The notes under the pieces: model-generated
The model's input: only the letters and a program-made list of their open reading frames with translations
What the model was told of the DNA's origin: nothing
The model's database searches: none
IMG/VR virus record: IMGVR_UViG_3300032224_001389
Location: 1-21,946 of that record
DNA: 21,946 nucleotides
Direction: 5' to 3' (one strand)
Origin: a virus
Program-made: the position numbers and the translations under genes
Shown: positions 6,217-16,829 of the stretch, piece after piece
Position numbering within the stretch: the first letter of the stretch is position 1
How the letters are laid out: the number at the start of each line of letters is the position of its first letter

Positions 6217-6343
6217 ATCTTCCCTGACCTACATATTTTTTAGGTCTAGGAGTGTGCTTATTATAAGACTTCTTAGCAGACCCTGTTTTACGTCTACCAA
6301 AACTAATTTTTCTAAGTTCTCCTGATGATTTTGCTTTAGCCAT
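6215..6343 (-). CDS. 42-residue highly basic protein
   Basis: This short gene was found by reading the minus strand. It starts MAKAKSSGELRKISFGRRK and ends PRPKKYVGQGR, with 14 Lys/Arg in 42 residues. The start is coupled to the preceding gene by a one-base TAATG overlap at 6343, and the stop lies in the terminator T tract, which makes it the last gene of the late transcript. The C-terminal NKH...YVGQGR pattern looks like a short conserved basic protein of Bacteroidota phages, from memory. The charge suggests nucleic-acid or acidic-partner binding, but no function is established. Confidence 0.6.
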   Translation of the reverse strand: MAKAKSSGELRKISFGRRKTGSAKKSYNKHTPRPKKYVGQGR

Positions 6344-7722
6344 TATGAATTATTTCTTGTTTTAACTACTGTAAATGTAAATGGACCAGTCATATTATCA
6401 TTGTTAGTCCATTCGTATCCATTTGATCCTATTGTAAGAGTATTAGTTGGTGTACCTGATCCTACATTACTATAAGATACAAGAATACCATCTCCACCAC
6501 CTGCTATCCAAAGTTCCACTCTGCCATCATAGTGATCATTTACCATAAGCATTCCTGAAAAATTAGGAATTACATGAGTGGCACCATTTCCTACAGCCAC
6601 GGTATTATTTGAAGTATCTGCTATAATCACATTACCTTCAGCATCTATAGTAGGACCACTTGTACCACCACTTGTAGCAGCTGTAGTCATTACTGAACCA
6701 TCAGCAAACTTAACAGGCACTGATTGAGGTATCACTGTTCTTGTATAAGCAAATCCTCCACCATTATTTTCAGCTGTCCAACCACTAAATACAAACTTAT
6801 AATATAAATCAGTAGTTAAATCATGCATTATAAGTTCTGTACTAAGTATATTAACTCCTACATTATAATCTAATGCATGTGTAAAATCTGTATAAACTCT
6901 AGATTCTAAATTACTAAGATCAGAAAATCCTGAATAACCAGGTCTTCCATCTACATAAGAGCTATTCCATCTTGTATTTTTAGGAGAGGCTCCTACACGT
7001 GAACGATCTTCATTAAGTGAATTGTATAAAGCTCTTCTATTAGCTCTAGCTAACCATACACCATCAGATATTTTATCTACTGTTTCTGTTTCACCATTTG
7101 GTTTTTCAAAATAAACTGAAGGAAATATTTCCCATCTGTCATAAGCAAAACCATAATTATCAAAATAACCCACTCCCCATTCTGTAAACATAATTAGAAA
7201 GTATCTAATAGTACCTTCACCATCATCAAATTTCATAACAACAGGCATTCCTACATATTGAGGAGGAGCAGCATCATTGTTATCATTAGGAGTTGTAATA
7301 GCATTTCTCCATGTATCAAAACTTCTATTTTGAACATCCCATAAAGGAGCCCATGAGGTATAGTCAGAATTTATAAAAGAAGTACTCCATGATGTATTTA
7401 ATGGAGCAAAGTCATTAGATGATTCTTCTACAGCAATATTATATATACCACCACCATTAGTACCTCTTGTAATTTCAAGAAGACCTGGTATAATTATATC
7501 TTTATTTGTTTCAGGACTTGACCCACTTGCTTTTCTAAAAGATACCTTAGGGCCTATAGAACCAGGTTTAAATCCTAAATCACGAATATCAGGTATAGAA
7601 GGAGTATTATTTATATCATCTATTAATCTATTAAGATGACCAAATCTAGCTAATTCTGTATCACCTTTTATTTTGCCTAATGATTTATCAGGGCTTGACG
7701 GTTTAAATTTTCTTATTGCCAT
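6343..7722 (-). CDS. Modular fibre/adhesin protein with shared N-terminal tag (459 aa)
   Basis: Residues 1-38 are the shared docking module (KFKPSSPDKSLGKIKGD then ELARFGHLNRLIDDIN) found in five proteins of this block. The middle region (about 80-335) is beta-rich and aromatic, with WSTSF, YTSWAPLWD and several Trp/Tyr/Asp-rich strands, suggesting a jelly-roll or carbohydrate-binding domain. After a short linker with FADGSVMTTAATSGG, the C-terminal 110 residues form a beta domain containing VELWIAGGGDGILVSYS. There is no signal peptide or membrane segment. By its tag and place in the late block it is probably a virion surface protein, perhaps for receptor binding. No enzyme motif is visible. 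The stop overlaps the next start (TAATG). Confidence 0.75.
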   Translation of the reverse strand: MAIRKFKPSSPDKSLGKIKGDTELARFGHLNRLIDDINNTPSIPDIRDLGFKPGSIGPKVSFRKASGSSPETNKDIIIPGLLEITRGTNGGGIYNIAVEESSNDFAPLNTSWSTSFINSDYTSWAPLWDVQNRSFDTWRNAITTPNDNNDAAPPQYVGMPVVMKFDDGEGTIRYFLIMFTEWGVGYFDNYGFAYDRWEIFPSVYFEKPNGETETVDKISDGVWLARANRRALYNSLNEDRSRVGASPKNTRWNSSYVDGRPGYSGFSDLSNLESRVYTDFTHALDYNVGVNILSTELIMHDLTTDLYYKFVFSGWTAENNGGGFAYTRTVIPQSVPVKFADGSVMTTAATSGGTSGPTIDAEGNVIIADTSNNTVAVGNGATHVIPNFSGMLMVNDHYDGRVELWIAGGGDGILVSYSNVGSGTPTNTLTIGSNGYEWTNNDNMTGPFTFTVVKTRNNS

Positions 7723-7734
7723 TATTATATAATT

Positions 7735-8172
7735 TTAATATGTGTCTATTCCAACAAATTCAGTACCATTGTATATAACTTCTATACAAATAGGATCAGT
7801 GATAATATAAGGATTTAATATACCACCTCCACCAGAAGGAACAATTGATCCTGCAAAATATACTTTTACACCAGCTCCTGTTAACATAATATACATTTTA
7901 TCTCCAGCTTCTAGATTCATACTAAAATAAGGATCTATATCAACTTGTAATGTAAAATCTTGTGTAAGAGTTCCTTTAAAAGTAACAATAGTTTCTACAT
8001 GATTAGGAACTATACGAACAGTGCTGTTATGAGTAGGAACAGGAAATTCATGTGTTTTTCTAAATTTACTAACTATATCATTTACATGACCTAGTCTAGC
8101 TACTTCATTATCCCCTATAGTATGTCCTAGATAAATATCTGGACTAAGAGGTTTTATTTTTTTTAGTGCCAT
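7735..8172 (-). CDS. Short modular virion protein with shared tag (145 aa)
   Basis: Residues 1-38 are the shared docking module (KKIKPLSPDIYLGHTIGD, then EVARLGHVN). The remaining 105 residues look like one compact beta domain: repeated short strands (TIVTFKGTLTQDFTLQV, YIMLTGAGVKVYFAG), a Gly-rich turn (SGGGGI) and a C-terminal CIEVIYNGTEFVGIDTY. This resembles the capping beta domain seen at the C terminus of many phage fibre-like proteins. Its ATG is two bases after the stop of the 51-residue gene. Probable role: a small surface or decoration protein using the same attachment site as its tagged neighbours. No family is firmly recognised. Confidence 0.7.
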   Translation of the reverse strand: MALKKIKPLSPDIYLGHTIGDNEVARLGHVNDIVSKFRKTHEFPVPTHNSTVRIVPNHVETIVTFKGTLTQDFTLQVDIDPYFSMNLEAGDKMYIMLTGAGVKVYFAGSIVPSGGGGILNPYIITDPICIEVIYNGTEFVGIDTY

Positions 8173-8348: not shown

Positions 8349-8990
8349 TTAATAAAGAGTAAATTTAAGAGGAGTACCTTCAACAACTAGGAACTCAAAT
8401 TCAAAAGCAGCATCACCATATATAGCATTTACTGCTGTATTAGAAGCTGCAATTAAATATAAGTCTGCTCCATCTGGAGAATATTGATCTATTGCAATAT
8501 TCATAAGTTCTGCAGGAACTAAGTCACCATTATCATCTTCTATAGATGCACCATTTGCAAATGAAGATATAACAGGAACTGGTCCAGGCCAACTTGGAGA
8601 ACAAGTAATAGTTCCTGTAGTTTTAAATGGACTTAAATATAAAGAACTACCATCAGTTGTTTCCACTGTACCAATGTATTCTATAATAAAAGTATCACTT
8701 GCAGAACCTAATTCATACACTCCTCCTACTTTATAACTTTCTAAATTATAAGGAAAGAAAGTTGGGCTAGCTGGAGTATCAATAACCTTAGTGCTGCCTT
8801 TAATCATTGATGGTGTAACAGGAAAAGGATAGATATCATATATTCCAGTTTTGTATGTGGAATACAATTCACTTTTGTTAATATCATCTACTAGTCCATT
8901 AAGATGTCCTAGTCTTGCTAATGCAGCATCTCCTTTAATCTTATTTAAATAGATTTCAGGACTACGAGGTTTAAATTTTTTAAGTGCCAT
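8349..8990 (-). CDS. Modular virion protein with shared tag (213 aa)
   Basis: Residues 1-38 carry the shared module (KKFKPRSPEIYLNKIKGD, then ALARLGHLNGLVDDIN). The remaining 175 residues differ from the other tagged proteins: a Pro/Tyr-rich start (GIYDIYPFPVTPSM), a beta-rich middle (SDTFIIEYIGTVE) and a C-terminal segment ending EGTPLKFTLY. There is no catalytic or membrane motif. The tag marks it as a probable surface component attached to the same virion site as the others; the variable part may bind a receptor or glycan. At the DNA level the first bases (ATGGCACT) match the 7735-8172 gene, consistent with duplication and divergence. Confidence 0.7.
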   Translation of the reverse strand: MALKKFKPRSPEIYLNKIKGDAALARLGHLNGLVDDINKSELYSTYKTGIYDIYPFPVTPSMIKGSTKVIDTPASPTFFPYNLESYKVGGVYELGSASDTFIIEYIGTVETTDGSSLYLSPFKTTGTITCSPSWPGPVPVISSFANGASIEDDNGDLVPAELMNIAIDQYSPDGADLYLIAASNTAVNAIYGDAAFEFEFLVVEGTPLKFTLY

Positions 8991-9000
8991 AATTAAGGTT

Positions 9001-9975
9001 TTATAAAATGTTTAAAAATTGTGTTGTTAAATCTGTCCAGCCTGATACAGAGTTGTACTTTTTAAAAGTAGTAACTTCTACATATGCATTATATCCATGG
9101 TCTACATTGATAAATGTACCACCACAATAAAATACATCTACATTAGTTCCTACGTTAGCACTCACTATACCAGAAGCTCCTGTAAGAAATGTATCTGCTG
9201 CCACTCTAATTAGTTCTGTACAATATTTCATAGAAGCTCCATATAAAGATGGTGTAGATACAAAGTTATAAGTAGATAATATAGTAGCTCTATTAGCATA
9301 TAGTATAGAACAAAGTTTATAATGCTGATCATTATTAGCAAAAACTCCTGTATTATATACTGGAGCACTTCCATTACCTATAACCCATGTAGCAGCAGTT
9401 GCTACAGCACCACAAGTGTTATCTGTTAAAGACTGAGCCTGAGTTTTACCTTTTCTCCATATACGTCCTACATTACCAACTTGTGACACACCTATATGAG
9501 GCATATTAACTAAAAATAAAGCTCCATTAGCTGTAATATGAGAAGCCCATGCTTGTAGTCCTAATACACCTGTATGAGGATAACCAGCTAATCCTGCACC
9601 AAAGAATGGTCCAAGAAAACTAGACTGCTGTGCAGAAGTCTGTCCTAGATTGTCAACATGCTCTATAGCATTAACATCATCAGAACATATGTCTGTACTA
9701 AGAAGTATGTCTTTATAATTGTATCCTTGAGTTTTAATAAACTCTTTAGCAGCTTCAGCAAATCTCAATGCTGGTACAGCACCTTCATATTCACTTTGAA
9801 CAGTGATTGTGTATGATGCTGGATTGGGTGGAAATATAGAAGTTGTACAACATAAGTCTGCTGGAACTTCGTTCCATGTACTAGGGCCATTTGGATATGA
9901 ACCACTAGTTAAGATGAGACTACCAGGTACTATCTTTCCCTGTTTAGAATATCTTACAAATGCTCTTTTTTTCAT
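9001..9975 (-). CDS. Virion-type protein with an LCIB-like beta-carbonic-anhydrase domain
   Basis: Residues 1-43 form a different N-terminal tag from its neighbours (KKRAFVRYSKQGKIVPGSL, ending DLCC), of a kind I associate with Bacteroidota phage structural proteins. Residues about 55-310 match, from memory, the layout of the LCIB/LCIC family of beta-carbonic anhydrases. The order is a helix then DICSDDVN (Cys97, Asp99/100), a Gly-rich loop GPFFGAGLAG, LVNMPHIGVS (His160), NVGRIWRKGK (Arg171/174), TCGAVA (Cys188) and a closing strand VFYCGGTFINVDHGY. Cys97/His160/Cys188 would be the zinc ligands, with an Asp/Arg dyad. If active it would interconvert CO2 and bicarbonate; it may instead be a fold reused for binding. 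No signal peptide is visible. The match rests on motif recall without a search. Confidence 0.6.
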   Translation of the reverse strand: MKKRAFVRYSKQGKIVPGSLILTSGSYPNGPSTWNEVPADLCCTTSIFPPNPASYTITVQSEYEGAVPALRFAEAAKEFIKTQGYNYKDILLSTDICSDDVNAIEHVDNLGQTSAQQSSFLGPFFGAGLAGYPHTGVLGLQAWASHITANGALFLVNMPHIGVSQVGNVGRIWRKGKTQAQSLTDNTCGAVATAATWVIGNGSAPVYNTGVFANNDQHYKLCSILYANRATILSTYNFVSTPSLYGASMKYCTELIRVAADTFLTGASGIVSANVGTNVDVFYCGGTFINVDHGYNAYVEVTTFKKYNSVSGWTDLTTQFLNIL

Positions 9976-10005: not shown

Positions 10006-11424
10006 TTATCCTACTTGACATATAGTAGCTATTATACTAGGTATATGTGGTAGAGTTGGATATAAGCTTGTATTATACAATATTCTAATTGTACTCACTG
10101 TAGATCTCCACATAATTTGTACATTTTGACCTGCTGTTAATGGAAGAAAATAATTCCAAGCAGCCATCACAAGATCTCCATTATTAGCAAGAGTTAATGT
10201 ACCTGCTGTATCAGGAACATCTACACCATTCACTCTAATCCAAAAATATGTTTGAGCAGCTCCACCACCTGATGTTCTACTAAGTTGTGCAGAGAATTGC
10301 AAGTTGTATATTCCTGTATTAGCAGCTGTTATTTTAGTGGGGTTTCCAGATAGGTCATTAACAATACTAAAACCACTTGTACAAGTGAGGTCAGTGGTGT
10401 TAAACTTTGTAGCTAAGTTTTCATTACCAGCTGTTATTTGTGTAGTGGTATCATAAAAAGATCCTCTATAACCACCAGCTGCTCCTGAAATACCTTGAAT
10501 TCCCTGAGGTCCTTGAATCCCCTGAATACCTTGAGGCCCAGTGTCTCCAGTATTTCCCTTATCACCTTTAATCCCTTGTATTCCTTGAATCCCCTGTGCT
10601 CCAGTAGCTCCTGTTGCACCAGTGTCACCTTTTGGTCCAGCTGGTCCAGGATCACCTTGAGGTCCTTTAATATCTCCAGCATCAAACCATATAGAACCAT
10701 TCCAAGAATATAAAGATCCATCTGTAAGAATAATCCATGCATCACCTATATTAGCACCAGGACTTCCTCCTGCACCAGCTAAAAAAGATGCAAGATCAGG
10801 ATAAGATCCTAATATAGTTACAGAGTTACCAGCAGGTCCTTGAGATCCAGTAGCACCAGTATCTCCTTTAGGACCTTGAGATCCTGTGTCACCTTTTACT
10901 CCTTGTATACCCTGTATACCTTGATCACCTTTTGCACCTGTTGAGCCAGTATCTCCTTTCACTCCCTGAATACCTTGCACACCTTGTATACCTTGTATTC
11001 CTTGAGGTCCCTGTATACCCTGTGGCCCTTGTGGGCCTAAAAGATCTCCTGCATCATCCCAAATATTTGTAGAGGTATTCCATACATATAATGAACCATC
11101 AGAAAGAATAATCCAGGCAGCTCCTGCAGTTCCTGGACTACCACCAGCCCCTGCTAGAAAACTAGCTAAGTCTGGATAGGAACCTAAAACAGTTAAAGCA
11201 GCACCTGTATTTCCCTGAATACCTTGGATTCCTTGAATACCTTGTGAACCCTGAGGACCAATTGGTCCCTGTGGACCTACAGGACCTTGAGGACCTACTA
11301 AATTAGTACCATTAATTTGGTCTACTATATTATTTAAATGAGCTAATCTAGCCAATTCAGTATCACCCTTAATTTTACCTAAATAAGGATCAGGACTCTG
11401 TGCTTTTATTTTTTTAATTGGCAT
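10006..11424 (-). CDS. Collagen-like fibre with shared tag and C1q-like tip (472 aa)
   Basis: Domain order: shared docking module (1-38); collagen Gly-X-Y tract 1 (44-74); globular bead A (76-129); collagen tract 2 (130-210); bead B (211-263); collagen tract 3 (264-326); and a C-terminal beta jelly roll (330-472) with features of a C1q/TNF-like trimer head (TGIYNLQFSAQL, TYFWIRVNG, then a final PSIIATICQV strand). The beads share GSYPDLASFLAGAGGSPG and W(N)..S..W.DAGD. Collagen tracts rich in GIQGIQG and GPQGPQG are typical of trimeric phage fibres. The whole would be a long trimeric stalk with a binding tip, anchored by the tag. Probably a receptor-binding or mucus/glycan-adhering fibre. Confidence 0.85.
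   Translation of the reverse strand: MPIKKIKAQSPDPYLGKIKGDTELARLAHLNNIVDQINGTNLVGPQGPVGPQGPIGPQGSQGIQGIQGIQGNTGAALTVLGSYPDLASFLAGAGGSPGTAGAAWIILSDGSLYVWNTSTNIWDDAGDLLGPQGPQGIQGPQGIQGIQGVQGIQGVKGDTGSTGAKGDQGIQGIQGVKGDTGSQGPKGDTGATGSQGPAGNSVTILGSYPDLASFLAGAGGSPGANIGDAWIILTDGSLYSWNGSIWFDAGDIKGPQGDPGPAGPKGDTGATGATGAQGIQGIQGIKGDKGNTGDTGPQGIQGIQGPQGIQGISGAAGGYRGSFYDTTTQITAGNENLATKFNTTDLTCTSGFSIVNDLSGNPTKITAANTGIYNLQFSAQLSRTSGGGAAQTYFWIRVNGVDVPDTAGTLTLANNGDLVMAAWNYFLPLTAGQNVQIMWRSTVSTIRILYNTSLYPTLPHIPSIIATICQVG
10636..10794 (-). repeat. Bead domain B of the collagen fibre
   Basis: This encodes residues 211-263. It is a diverged copy of bead A (11038-11199), with GSYPDLASFLAGAGGSPG identical in the two copies and the same W...W.DAGD ending. 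The DNA differs at many third positions, so the duplication is not recent. Confidence 0.7.
11038..11199 (-). repeat. Bead domain A of the collagen fibre
   Basis: This encodes residues 76-129, the first of two bead domains interrupting the collagen-like stalk. It has AAWIILSDGSLYVWN where bead B has DAWIILTDGSLYSWN. Such GDLY/W motifs are common between Gly-X-Y tracts in phage fibres. Confidence 0.7.
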
Positions 11425-11429
11425 ATTAA

Positions 11430-11492
11430 TTATTTTTTAGGTTTAGCTGGTTTACCACAGCCACAACCATATATGTTATTATTTTTAGTCAT
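11430..11492 (-). CDS. 20-residue Cys-Gly mini-protein
   Basis: A 20-codon frame begins MTKNNN, continues IYGCGCGKPAKPKK and stops with TAA. Its ATG is coupled to the holin-like gene's stop by a one-base TAATG overlap, as at other real junctions in this block, and its stop is five bases before the collagen fibre start. The composition is distinctive: two cysteines in a CGC motif, then a basic Lys-Pro tail. This could bind a metal or form a disulphide, or the peptide may serve only to couple translation. I have a vague memory of similar tiny CGCGK peptides in Bacteroidota phages, but cannot confirm it. Confidence 0.45.
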   Translation of the reverse strand: MTKNNNIYGCGCGKPAKPKK

Positions 11493-11800
11493 TATTCTTC
11501 TTTTTTATCAGACTTCTGTGTACCAAAATAGTATGAAAAAATCATGAGAGTTAAAGTTTTTATTAAATCAAATAGCTGATCATTTTGAGCATCAGACAAT
11601 AATGGCATTTTAAATGCTATTACCTTATCAACTATAAATACACCCACTAAAGAAGCAAATACTAAAAGAATAAATCTAACTAGTAAATCTTTAGTATGAT
11701 TAGCAAACAATTTATTTATATAATGTACTGAATACATAATAAATGACATTCCTCCAACAACACCAAGTAACATCACCCATAGATTAGAATTGCTAAACAT
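11492..11800 (-). CDS. Holin-like membrane protein (three TM segments)
   Basis: This 102-residue protein has three hydrophobic segments (about 7-27, 40-60 and 80-94) and a short charged C-terminal tail (GTQKSDKKEE), the layout of a class I holin that makes inner-membrane lesions at lysis. Its start is coupled to the stop of the endolysin gene by TAATG, so endolysin and holin are made from the same message. Position and topology support the holin call; no family is recognised with certainty. A structural membrane protein is an alternative. Confidence 0.6.
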   Translation of the reverse strand: MFSNSNLWVMLLGVVGGMSFIMYSVHYINKLFANHTKDLLVRFILLVFASLVGVFIVDKVIAFKMPLLSDAQNDQLFDLIKTLTLMIFSYYFGTQKSDKKEE

Positions 11801-12393
11801 TATGCAAGTAATTTATAGTATTCATTAAAATGTTTTATTCTATCTTCTAAACCAATAGTTCCACCATTTACACACTTACTTACAGAGGTAATAGATTCTT
11901 CTGTATTACTAGTAGCTTTCTTAAGACAGTTCTTTTGAAAGAACCAAGCTGCTGAAGCTAATGGATATTTTGTAGCTACTAAGTCAGGATTAGCAACACA
12001 ATCTTCTCCTATAGCAGTAGAGAATGCTTTATAGTTATCATGACCAGTGAGCTGGATGAACCCTCTTCCTCTAAATTTGAATCCCATACCAGATGCCTCA
12101 TCTCCATTACCCATTCTATTAGCATAAACTCTATTAGCTATTTTCTCAGGCTTTCTTTCATATGCAGCAGCTAAATCTTCTGTAGGGAAGTATTTAGGAA
12201 ATACCCCTCTCAATCCTTTAGCACCATAGTTTAGGTTCTCTTGTGTAAGTTTAAACCCACCTGATTCATGACTACATTGAGCTAAGAAATGAGATAGTTT
12301 AACAACTGTATCAATACCAAACTTAGTTATTACTTCAGGAATTTGAGCTAAAACTGAATCAGGTATATGTCCTTTTAACTTACTTATATCCAT
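11800..12393 (-). CDS. GH19 endolysin (chitinase-fold peptidoglycan hydrolase)
   Basis: A glycoside hydrolase family 19 enzyme, used by many phages to cut the glycan strands of peptidoglycan at lysis. Diagnostic segments are FLAQCSHESGGF (36-47; catalytic Glu43), ENLNYGAKGLRGVFPKYFP (52-70), FRGRGFIQLTGHDNY (107-121), AAWFF and VNGGTIGLEDR (175-185). At 197 residues it is a single catalytic domain with no cell-wall-binding module and no signal peptide, so it needs a holin to reach the periplasm. It overlaps the DUF1003 gene before it by 14 bases and is coupled to the holin-like gene after it by TAATG. Confidence 0.93.
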   Translation of the reverse strand: MDISKLKGHIPDSVLAQIPEVITKFGIDTVVKLSHFLAQCSHESGGFKLTQENLNYGAKGLRGVFPKYFPTEDLAAAYERKPEKIANRVYANRMGNGDEASGMGFKFRGRGFIQLTGHDNYKAFSTAIGEDCVANPDLVATKYPLASAAWFFQKNCLKKATSNTEESITSVSKCVNGGTIGLEDRIKHFNEYYKLLA

Positions 12394-12832: not shown

Positions 12833-13624
12833 TTATAATCTAACTCCCTCTATAGCAAATGTAGCTTGATTATAATATAAATATGTATTTCCTGCAACTC
12901 CTCCATTTCCTATAGTGATTGCTGTTGTAGCAGCTGTTCTATTTGTATATGAAGGAAGAGAGCTATTAGAAATAATTGTCATTCCAGATAATGCATTACC
13001 AATACCTGCATTTTTACCTATAGCATTTACAGTAGTACCAGTAGAATTTTTACCAGCATTATATCCTATAAAATTTGAATAAAGTGCCCCATTAGCACCA
13101 TCACCTGTAGCATAACCTATAAAATTTGAATAAGATGAATTATTTACTGTTGATCCAGCTCTTCCAATAAATACAGAATAATTGGTATTAGTTGCTGTTT
13201 GTCCACTTCCTCTTCCTAAAAAAATACATTCATTAGCATTTGTTGATTGGTATCCTGCTAATGGTCCTATAAATATTGAGTTATTTGAACCAGTAGATTG
13301 ATACCCTGCTCTATCTGCTATAAAAACTGAATCATAAGAATTAGTTGCTGAATTTCCTGCGTCAGGTCCTAAAAATATTGAACCATATGCATTAGATCCA
13401 GATCCTGCATTTGATCCTAAAAGTATAGAGTTAAGAATAGAAAAATTAGATGTAGCAGGACTAGTAGAATATATTGTTGTTCCTAAAGTTTCTATAACTG
13501 CAGGATTATTATTAATTTGATCTACAAGTTGATTTACATGAGCTATACGAGCTAATGTGTTATCTCCTACTGTTTTACCTAAGTAGGGATCTGGACTTTT
13601 GGGCTTTATTTTTTTAATACTCAT
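12833..13624 (-). CDS. Tagged fibre protein with 17-residue beta-roll repeats (263 aa)
   Basis: The shared docking module (1-38: KKIKPKSPDPYLGKTVGD, then LARIAHVNQLVDQIN) is followed by a short linker. About eight or nine repeats of roughly 17 residues then run from 66 to 208, with the core pattern S(I/V/N)F(I/L)G..AG..ST. The C-terminal unit contains AITIGNGG and QATFAIEGVRL. Such SIFIG..AG repeats build left-handed beta-rolls or trimeric beta-prism stalks like those of YadA heads and of Bacteroidota tail-fibre proteins. It is a probable trimeric surface fibre or adhesin. It is coupled to the preceding gene by TAATG at 13624. Confidence 0.8.
   Translation of the reverse strand: MSIKKIKPKSPDPYLGKTVGDNTLARIAHVNQLVDQINNNPAVIETLGTTIYSTSPATSNFSILNSILLGSNAGSGSNAYGSIFLGPDAGNSATNSYDSVFIADRAGYQSTGSNNSIFIGPLAGYQSTNANECIFLGRGSGQTATNTNYSVFIGRAGSTVNNSSYSNFIGYATGDGANGALYSNFIGYNAGKNSTGTTVNAIGKNAGIGNALSGMTIISNSSLPSYTNRTAATTAITIGNGGVAGNTYLYYNQATFAIEGVRL
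13001..13429 (-). repeat. Tandem 17-residue (about 51 bp) beta-roll repeats
   Basis: These encode residues 66-208 of the fibre protein, with units such as SIFLGPDAGNSATNSYD, SIFIGPLAGYQSTNANE and SNFIGYNAGKNSTGTTV. The units are diverged in DNA and vary slightly in length, so this is a protein-level repeat rather than a perfect DNA tandem array. Confidence 0.75.
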
Positions 13625-14789: not shown

Positions 14790-16829
14790 TTAATTGTCAA
14801 TTTCAGTTCCTAAATAAGCTCCAGAACCACTATCCCAATAAATTAATTTTAAACTATTAAAATTATCAACTATTTTAATATCTTTAGAAAATGATTGATA
14901 TATTATACTAGCAGCACTAATATCAGTGGTAACATATCCTTGAGATGTTGTATTAAATATTTGATTACCTGATAGAACTCCACTATTAGTAAAATCCCAT
15001 ATAGAATTATTTAGAACAACTGCAGGTCCTACACTAAATCCACTAAAAGTAGTATTAATTATTTGACTATAGCTTAAATCAGCATTAAAAATAGAGGAAT
15101 TATCAAAACCATTACGTGTTATTAAACTAAATTCTTTCACTGTACAAAAACTTATAGAACTTTGAATACCATCTCCAATAGTTCCTAAATCATTATCATT
15201 AATTCCTGAATAATTACTTATTTCATTATTCATTATATTACTATTATTATCTAAATCATTACTATAAATTCCTAAAACATCATCATCATATTGATCACCA
15301 ATACTATTAGTAATATTGTTATATTGAATTTTAGAAGAATTGTTAAGTAGATTACTATTAATTTGACTAGATTTTAAAACATTATACTGTATAAGAGCAC
15401 TGTTTTGCAAATTATTATTACTAATATTTGCATAATAAGTTCCTCCTCCATATATAGAAGTATCAACAGCTCCTCCATACACTTGGTTATATTGTATAGT
15501 GCTATCTATACTATAATTATTATTCATATAAGAACTATCACTAAATGTATTATGTCCAATATATGAAGTTCTAAAGTAGTTATTATATACAGCACAAACA
15601 GAGAAAGAGTTTACATTAAAAGTTGTATTATAATAAAAGATATTTTCTGATACCTCAGTTTCAAAAAATTTACTTTCTAAAAAATATGCATTATTAGTAA
15701 TTATGTTATTGTGAATATTACTATAATCAAAGTTATTATCACTTATATACCCATAATAAGATATATCATTATTTTCTATAGAAGTAGTACGTGTAAAAAT
15801 GTTTCTTTCAATTCCAGCACTTTGTGATGAAAGTTTACAAGAATATAAATGACTTCCTTGATTTAATATATTTTGTGAAAAAACAGATCCTGTTTCAAAT
15901 ATACAAGATTGTACATAAGAAATTTGTGTTAATGTATTATTTGCTAATTCATTTCCTCTAAAGTTTACACATTCTAAGTATGAATCTATCATTTTATTAT
16001 TAAACACATTTCCATTACCCCATTGAAATAACTTAATTGGATTATCAACAAAGTAATTATTGTAATCAAGATTTGTAGCATCTACTTCATTTCCATTAAT
16101 ATCTTTACGTGAAGATATATAGTCATTATTAATATCATATGTAATAGCATCTAAAACAACATTATAGTCTGTATCATTATATGGTACTAAATCCCAATCA
16201 CCACTATTAAGTGTATATCTATCTTGACTATATCCTAAATTACCACTAGTATTTTCCCAAACTCTTCCTCCCCAATTTACTTTATCTCCTACATTATATG
16301 ATGTAGGTTGAGAAATTATAGAAACAGTATAGTCACTTGATGTTCTATCACAAGTGATGTATTCTATTCCTGAAGACCAAACTATACCATCTGTAGGAAT
16401 TATAAGACCTGCAGATATGTATGTTCCTGTATCACCTAGATTAGAGGTTACAGTGTCACCATTAGAAATATTATAATCTAAGTCAAATATTCCAAACTGA
16501 ATGTATTCAGAGTATACACCATAAGGATCAACAGTACTAACATATTTGGGATTATAAAATAACCCCCAACCATCAGAAGATATTTTATTAGTAGCTACAG
16601 CATGTAACATTATAGTTGTTCCACCATATAAGTTAGTATTTACACCATGAATAATGTAATGTTGACCAGGAACAAGAGTATTATTATCTATAGCTAATTG
16701 TAAATCTTCTGGATTATTAACTACAACAGGTTCTCCTCCACCACCATTACAGCATGAATCTATTTTACAGCATAATTGCTTATACTTATTAGTTAACCAG
16801 TCTAGTTGTTCAAATATTCCTCTTGCCAT
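14790..16829 (-). CDS. Large Asn-rich beta-helix adhesin/tail fibre (679 aa)
   Basis: The largest protein in the window. Residues 1-28 form a helix ending in Cys pairs (QLCCKIDSCCNGGGG), probably a third type of attachment tag. An entry domain follows (VNNPEDLQLAIDNNTLVPGQ, then YIIHGVNTNLYGGTTIMLHA). From about residue 260 to 620 there is a long run of short Asn/Ser/Ile-rich turns (NNNLQNSALIQYN, NNSSKIQYNNITNS, NIMNNEISNYSGINDNDL), the signature of a right-handed parallel beta-helix with Asn ladders. Such helices in phages bind or cut surface polysaccharide; no catalytic residues can be named here. It is second in the late transcript, four bases after the previous gene. Confidence 0.75.
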   Translation of the reverse strand: MARGIFEQLDWLTNKYKQLCCKIDSCCNGGGGEPVVVNNPEDLQLAIDNNTLVPGQHYIIHGVNTNLYGGTTIMLHAVATNKISSDGWGLFYNPKYVSTVDPYGVYSEYIQFGIFDLDYNISNGDTVTSNLGDTGTYISAGLIIPTDGIVWSSGIEYITCDRTSSDYTVSIISQPTSYNVGDKVNWGGRVWENTSGNLGYSQDRYTLNSGDWDLVPYNDTDYNVVLDAITYDINNDYISSRKDINGNEVDATNLDYNNYFVDNPIKLFQWGNGNVFNNKMIDSYLECVNFRGNELANNTLTQISYVQSCIFETGSVFSQNILNQGSHLYSCKLSSQSAGIERNIFTRTTSIENNDISYYGYISDNNFDYSNIHNNIITNNAYFLESKFFETEVSENIFYYNTTFNVNSFSVCAVYNNYFRTSYIGHNTFSDSSYMNNNYSIDSTIQYNQVYGGAVDTSIYGGGTYYANISNNNLQNSALIQYNVLKSSQINSNLLNNSSKIQYNNITNSIGDQYDDDVLGIYSNDLDNNSNIMNNEISNYSGINDNDLGTIGDGIQSSISFCTVKEFSLITRNGFDNSSIFNADLSYSQIINTTFSGFSVGPAVVLNNSIWDFTNSGVLSGNQIFNTTSQGYVTTDISAASIIYQSFSKDIKIVDNFNSLKLIYWDSGSGAYLGTEIDN

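Follow-up and report, generated by a model that had tools for sequence, protein, structure and literature searches.

A candidate surface protein of a crAss-like phage pairs a putative docking tag with an LCIB-type carbonic anhydrase domain

The viral DNA analyzed here, a stretch of 21,946 nucleotides (IMG/VR record IMGVR_UViG_3300032224_001389, positions 1 to 21,946; hereafter the window), contains an open reading frame whose product joins a 43-residue N-terminal tag to an LCIB_C_CA domain. With a probability that we put close to even, this product would be a modular crAss-like phage surface protein, in which a docking tag carries a displayed, most likely active LCIB carbonic anhydrase. The broader proposal, that a crAss-like lineage mounts an active LCIB enzyme by a universal tag, among dozens of exchangeable domains, and swaps a helical cassette within it, is one that we offer more tentatively, as a possibility that falls clearly short of even. 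In the collections and literature searched, we found no earlier description of an LCIB-class carbonic anhydrase in phages and no precedent for an LCIB enzyme in a tagged fibre-type crAss-like phage protein. A CO2/bicarbonate enzyme on a virion would be unexpected, if true, and would raise the question of how turning over CO2/bicarbonate or protons, at the cell surface or within a biofilm, could help a phage.

Results

The open reading frame reads from ATG to stop on the minus strand and is laid out as follows.

9001..9975, minus strand: whole open reading frame, N-terminal tag plus LCIB-type carbonic anhydrase domain, 324 aa
9847..9975, minus strand: tag 1, residues 1-43 (RAFVRY..VPGSL..W.EVPADLCC), a small compact beta module by AlphaFold that recurs on viral proteins
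9061..9774, minus strand: LCIB_C_CA domain (PF18599), residues 68-305, from Pfam, raw-DNA match and fold search

The motifs named in a sequence-only reading of this DNA all lie where it had placed them: DICSDDVN with Cys97, LVNMPHIGVS with His160, NVGRIWRKGK, TCGAVA with Cys188, and VFYCGGTFINVDHGY. The observation of a tagged LCIB-type open reading frame is thereby confirmed. Phage LCIB proteins split into a window-like group A and a group B with a different version of the tag (LKPYARF..EIVPGSL). A Pfam search of the window protein returned a single match, LCIB_C_CA (PF18599), at 92.2 bits (E 3.7e-26, residues 68-305), and group B members scored 64-68 bits, also above the curated cut-off of 25 bits. 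The raw DNA matches the LCIB family as well, at 9061-9774 on the minus strand. Against PDB sequences, phmmer detected 6kfs (E 3.4e-13), PtLCIB4 (5b5y, E 2e-10) and 9vzj; Chlamydomonas LCIC and LCIB were matched weakly. An AlphaFold model built on 32 sequences had a mean pLDDT of 79.9, with residues 190-324 mostly above 90. When this model was searched with Foldseek, the top 8 matches all belonged to the LCIB family and other beta-carbonic anhydrases followed; LCIB crystal structures were matched at E values of about 1e-16 to 1e-15 with TM scores up to 0.86, including the H88A structure of PtLCIB4 (E 1.9e-15, TM 0.86). The protein had no match among PHROGs, and a fold search against the BFVD viral predicted structures gave nothing significant. 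All available tests of sequence and fold agree that the protein belongs to the LCIB family; the sequence-only reading had proposed an LCIB-like domain, and both the profile match and the structural match to LCIB bear it out.

The predicted active site comprises six residues.

9685..9687, minus strand: Cys97, predicted metal ligand 1, invariant in alignment
9679..9681, minus strand: Asp99, predicted Asp of the catalytic dyad, invariant in alignment
9538..9540, minus strand: His146, aligned with PtLCIB4 His88 (the residue altered in 5b5z), invariant, from PDB alignment
9496..9498, minus strand: His160, predicted metal ligand 2, invariant in alignment
9454..9456, minus strand: Arg174, predicted catalytic Arg, invariant in alignment
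9412..9414, minus strand: Cys188, predicted metal ligand 3, invariant in alignment

Across 17 aligned phage proteins and 15 cellular ones, all six residues and ten others were invariant, and the active-site motifs were present in each of the 29 viral open reading frames of sufficient length. Cys97, His160 and Cys188, which had been proposed as ligands from the sequence, are among the invariant positions; from the known LCIB family pattern (general family knowledge and reviews) we take these three to be the metal ligands. Structural and sequence alignment to PtLCIB4 implies that they would converge on one metal site. In the PDB alignment, the H88A change of 5b5z falls on phage His146 and the S47R change of 5b60 on phage Ser98, which corresponds to PtLCIB4 Ser47. 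An Asp/Arg dyad had also been proposed; the dyad is best assigned to D99 and R174, while the position of the algal Arg that follows CSDEVN is occupied here by Ala103. We considered whether Ala103 abolishes the dyad and rejected this, because the Bacteroidota cellular enzymes also do without that Arg.

According to a review (PMC5876011), His162/161 and Arg194/193 of Chlamydomonas LCIB/LCIC are important for active-site integrity, and some LCIB homologues keep the fold and the zinc motif yet lacked carbonic anhydrase activity, so a conserved residue set allows activity but does not prove it. PtLCIB3 and PtLCIB4 are apparently constitutively active (PMC9614477). Given that the phage domain keeps the full set of metal and catalytic residues, metal binding and CO2/bicarbonate interconversion are most likely retained, and we regard catalysis as likely but unproven.

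A single-protein scan of IMG/VR found the full protein on eight contigs and, at locus L009, a tag 93% identical to that of the window protein in front of a different C-terminus. A profile scan extended the tagged LCIB protein to 34 IMG/VR contigs. A tblastn search of a collection of named phage genomes, run with the two tags as well as with the window protein and one from group B, gave no match (the short tag queries have low power), and a scan of genome contigs with the tag peptides found no relatives. A phylogenetic tree united the phage LCIB proteins in one clade (support 100/100). Its stem measures about 3 changes per site, yet the active-site residues stayed invariant; because of this long branch, the tree does not place the exact cellular source of the clade. 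Median dN/dS values of 0.27 in group A and 0.50 in group B, which are rough because part of the gene has recombined (see below), indicate purifying selection on average.

The tag is far more widespread than the domain behind it. Tag 1 was found on 180 distinct viral proteins, N-terminal in 175 and doubled in 16, and the parts that follow it fall into about 49 clusters; the size of the LCIB cluster among them is biased, because LCIB loci belonged to the seed set. Every one of the 30 distinct viral LCIB open reading frames carries the tag, as do 150 other viral proteins, and the LCIB motif occurred in 15 of the 122 loci retrieved by tag 1 alone. The suspected phage-type tag is real, in that it recurs on unrelated proteins. 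Its partners match Fib_succ_major, LRR_5, Lcl_C and mucin-like models as well as tail-fibre PHROGs. Some proteins bear the tag as a tandem pair (L008 6996-8039 and L009 7250-8314), and many combine it with long Thr/Ser/Pro-rich mucin-like tracts (L077, L121, L123, L124 and others). Modeled alone, tag 1 is compact and three-stranded (AlphaFold mean pLDDT 89); it has no match in PDB sequences, PDB folds or PHROGs. Together, the tag families amount to a large display-like system in environmental crassviruses, with one small module and dozens of payloads, of which we found no description in the literature.

Within the domain, one segment has a history of its own.

9190..9408, minus strand: allelic cassette, residues ~190-262, at least three alleles exchanged between phages, from identity and nucleotide windows

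Proteins of loci L061 and L065 are 95, 90 and 92% identical over three segments before residue 190, 36% identical over 190-262 and 76% identical thereafter. Conversely, L008 (group A) and L052 (group B) share 86% identity in the cassette and 24-57% elsewhere. Compared in nucleotide windows, the cassette is bounded near residues 185-193 and 249-257, allele 2 is present in both groups, and Q217 within the cassette is invariant among the 17 phage and 15 cellular proteins. These comparisons are direct evidence of intragenic recombination in the phage LCIB gene. They also suggest that the cassette is an exposed, selected surface; its exchange would fit a surface under diversifying selection.

Cassette exchange at 190-262, of the kind seen between L061 and L065, is typical of specificity regions, and it is an argument for reading the domain as a repurposed binding module: an LCIB fold serving as an adhesin or receptor-binding head, with a stabilizing metal site and a cassette that sets specificity. 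Of the tag partners that can be recognized, most resemble adhesins or structural proteins more than enzymes, and the higher dN/dS of group B (0.5) points the same way. However, D99, H146 and R174 are invariant along with the ligands, though a metal site with no more than a structural role could do without them, and we consider the binding-module reading unlikely, if the most serious of the alternatives to a displayed enzyme.

The genes around the open reading frame bear further tags.

6343..7722, minus strand: tag 2 plus a 420-aa domain
7735..8172, minus strand: tag 2 plus a small domain
8349..8990, minus strand: tag 2 plus a domain of unknown fold
10006..11424, minus strand: tag 2 (SPDxxLGKxxGDxxLARxxHLN) plus collagen repeats
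11492..11800, minus strand: small membrane protein, holin-like, from sequence and position
11800..12393, minus strand: glycoside hydrolase 19 endolysin within the tag cluster (PHROG 181, E 6e-64; PF00182)
12833..13624, minus strand: tag 2 plus a repeat domain
14790..16829, minus strand: tag 3 (LxWLTxxxKxLCC) plus a long repeat-rich domain

Tag 2 is thus found on five neighbors and tag 3 on one, with the endolysin and holin-like genes interspersed in the cluster. Tags 2 and 3 are two further N-terminal tag families that unrelated C-terminal domains of this cluster have in common. In group B phages (loci L066-L083, e.g., L083 14599-14886), a conserved protein of ~95 aa (MQINKKFFPEVMQDNDIAYFAHLEGIIDS), the N-terminus of which resembles tag 2, is encoded upstream of the LCIB gene.

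A close relative of the window, G002, encodes an LCIB protein 92% identical to that of the window in the same gene order (helicase, UDG, MoxR, VWA, tag cluster, DnaB-like, Sak4). It also encodes a TerL of PHROG 6681 and a portal protein assigned to PHROG 6547, and its capsid protein matches PHROG 11589 in part; the portal and capsid of crAss001 belong to these last two families. A second relative, G005 (117 kb), shows the same crAss-like TerL, portal and capsid families. The TerL relatives are from crAss-like gut phages and from Flavobacterium, Bacteroides and Cellulophaga phages. On this gene content, the window phage is crAss-like (Crassvirales-type), an assignment that holds through G002 and G005 because the 21.9-kb window has no TerL, portal or capsid genes of its own. 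From the crAss-like genes and the TerL relatives, we infer a Bacteroidota host.

The cellular relatives of the domain are mostly from Bacteroidota and Balneolota, with some from Planctomycetota. In Flavobacteriaceae (L022, L025, L032, L036, L039, L041 and L046), LCIB genes adjoin FolE, QueD-like PTPS, COG0523 or MerC genes; at L022 and L036, for instance, the gene lies beside GTP cyclohydrolase I, 6-pyruvoyl tetrahydropterin synthase, CobW/COG0523 GTPase or MerC. In proteobacteria, such genes mark zinc-limitation regulons, which can contain an additional carbonic anhydrase from a different class (PMC2770081), so the bacterial LCIB enzyme may, by analogy, be a low-zinc (zinc-sparing) or alternative-metal form.

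That Bacteroidota cells themselves encode LCIB enzymes, and that the phage domain has a complete active site, would suit an intracellular auxiliary metabolic carbonic anhydrase, acting late in infection to support bicarbonate-dependent synthesis or host pH, with the tag incidental or tethering. Against such a role, the fibre-type tag is present on 30 of 30 distinct viral copies, and the gene sits in a fibre and lysis cluster, away from metabolic genes. We therefore rate a metabolic role as distinctly improbable.

Discussion

Precedents for a display function come from two reference crassviruses. In crAss001, two head fibres, the trimeric gp21 and the dimeric gp29, are anchored in hexon pockets through residues 1-38 and 1-58, respectively; the authors suggested that external molecules are bound by these fibres and that uncharacterized analogues may serve other crassviruses (PMC10172136). 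The crAss001 gp29 gene lies among lysis genes, between holin-type and peptidase genes. In Cellulophaga phage phi14:2, the genes adjoining the GH19 lysis cassette owe their annotation as structural proteins to mass spectrometry. We rejected homology of tags 1 and 2 to crAss001 gp29/gp21 (hhalign probabilities below 2%), and the tags were not found in phi14:2, FPSV-S29 or the examined parts of crAss001 and Lbo-JY46 (matches at E >0.05 only). Because the tag has no PDB or PHROG match and no profile match to gp21/gp29, docking is an analogy. The label "virion-type" given in the sequence-only reading remains reasonable in view of the tag partners, the collagen-type neighbors and the crassvirus gene position, but does not extend to detectable homology with the crAss fibre-docking segments. 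Virion display of the tagged LCIB protein is, by this analogy, likely but unproven.

In the mechanism we propose, the 43-residue beta module would be a docking tag that fixes interchangeable C-terminal domains to one site of the particle; a fibre site on the capsid or associated with the tail is most likely. The LCIB-type domain would then be mounted outside the cell, on the virion, where it would interconvert CO2 and bicarbonate; the phage may benefit through host contact, or through an effect on pH or bicarbonate close to the cell surface. Crassviruses do hold cargo proteins inside the capsid (PMC10172136), but packaging by the tag, with ejection of the enzyme into the host at entry, is a most improbable account, as the LRR, Fib_succ_major and long Thr/Ser-rich tag partners fit the outer surface better.

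Compared with the LCIB/LCIC family (beta-type, also called theta; PtLCIB4, 6kfs, CrLCIB, CrLCIC; PF18599), the displayed-enzyme candidate described here has the same fold and the same order and identity of the Cys-His-Cys ligands, the Asp, the second His and the Arg, and it shares with PtLCIB4 the Ser after the first Cys. It differs in its phage origin, its N-terminal docking-like tag, its long separate branch, an insertion at about residues 104-120 and the exchanged cassette at 190-262. The LCIB proteins of Bacteroidota (Flavobacterium, Zobellia, Cecembia) and Balneolaceae have the same active-site set in a full-length domain, but lack the tag and are about 25% identical to the phage protein; Bacteroidota are the hosts of known crassviruses as well as carriers of cellular LCIB.

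Viruses are known to carry carbonic anhydrase genes of other types, as in Pandoravirus (in BFVD), a giant virus of Karenia brevis (PMC13037468) and, for a carboxysomal-type gene, a sponge virome (PMC7863781). Those cases concern eukaryotic viruses or another carbonic anhydrase class, and a fibre-type tag was not reported there.

The likeness to the crAss001 head fibres is, by comparison of layout, one of design and position, not of membership. Both gp21 and gp29 consist of a short N-terminal segment, of 38 and 58 residues, that carries a distinct C-terminal domain, as in the window protein, and gp29 is encoded among lysis genes just as the window LCIB gene lies in or beside a lysis cluster. 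The N-terminal segments of these fibres have no detectable sequence similarity to tags 1 and 2, and gp21 and gp29 end in phi29 gp8.5-like and Ig-like domains that are not enzymes, whereas the C-terminus of the window protein is of the LCIB enzyme type.
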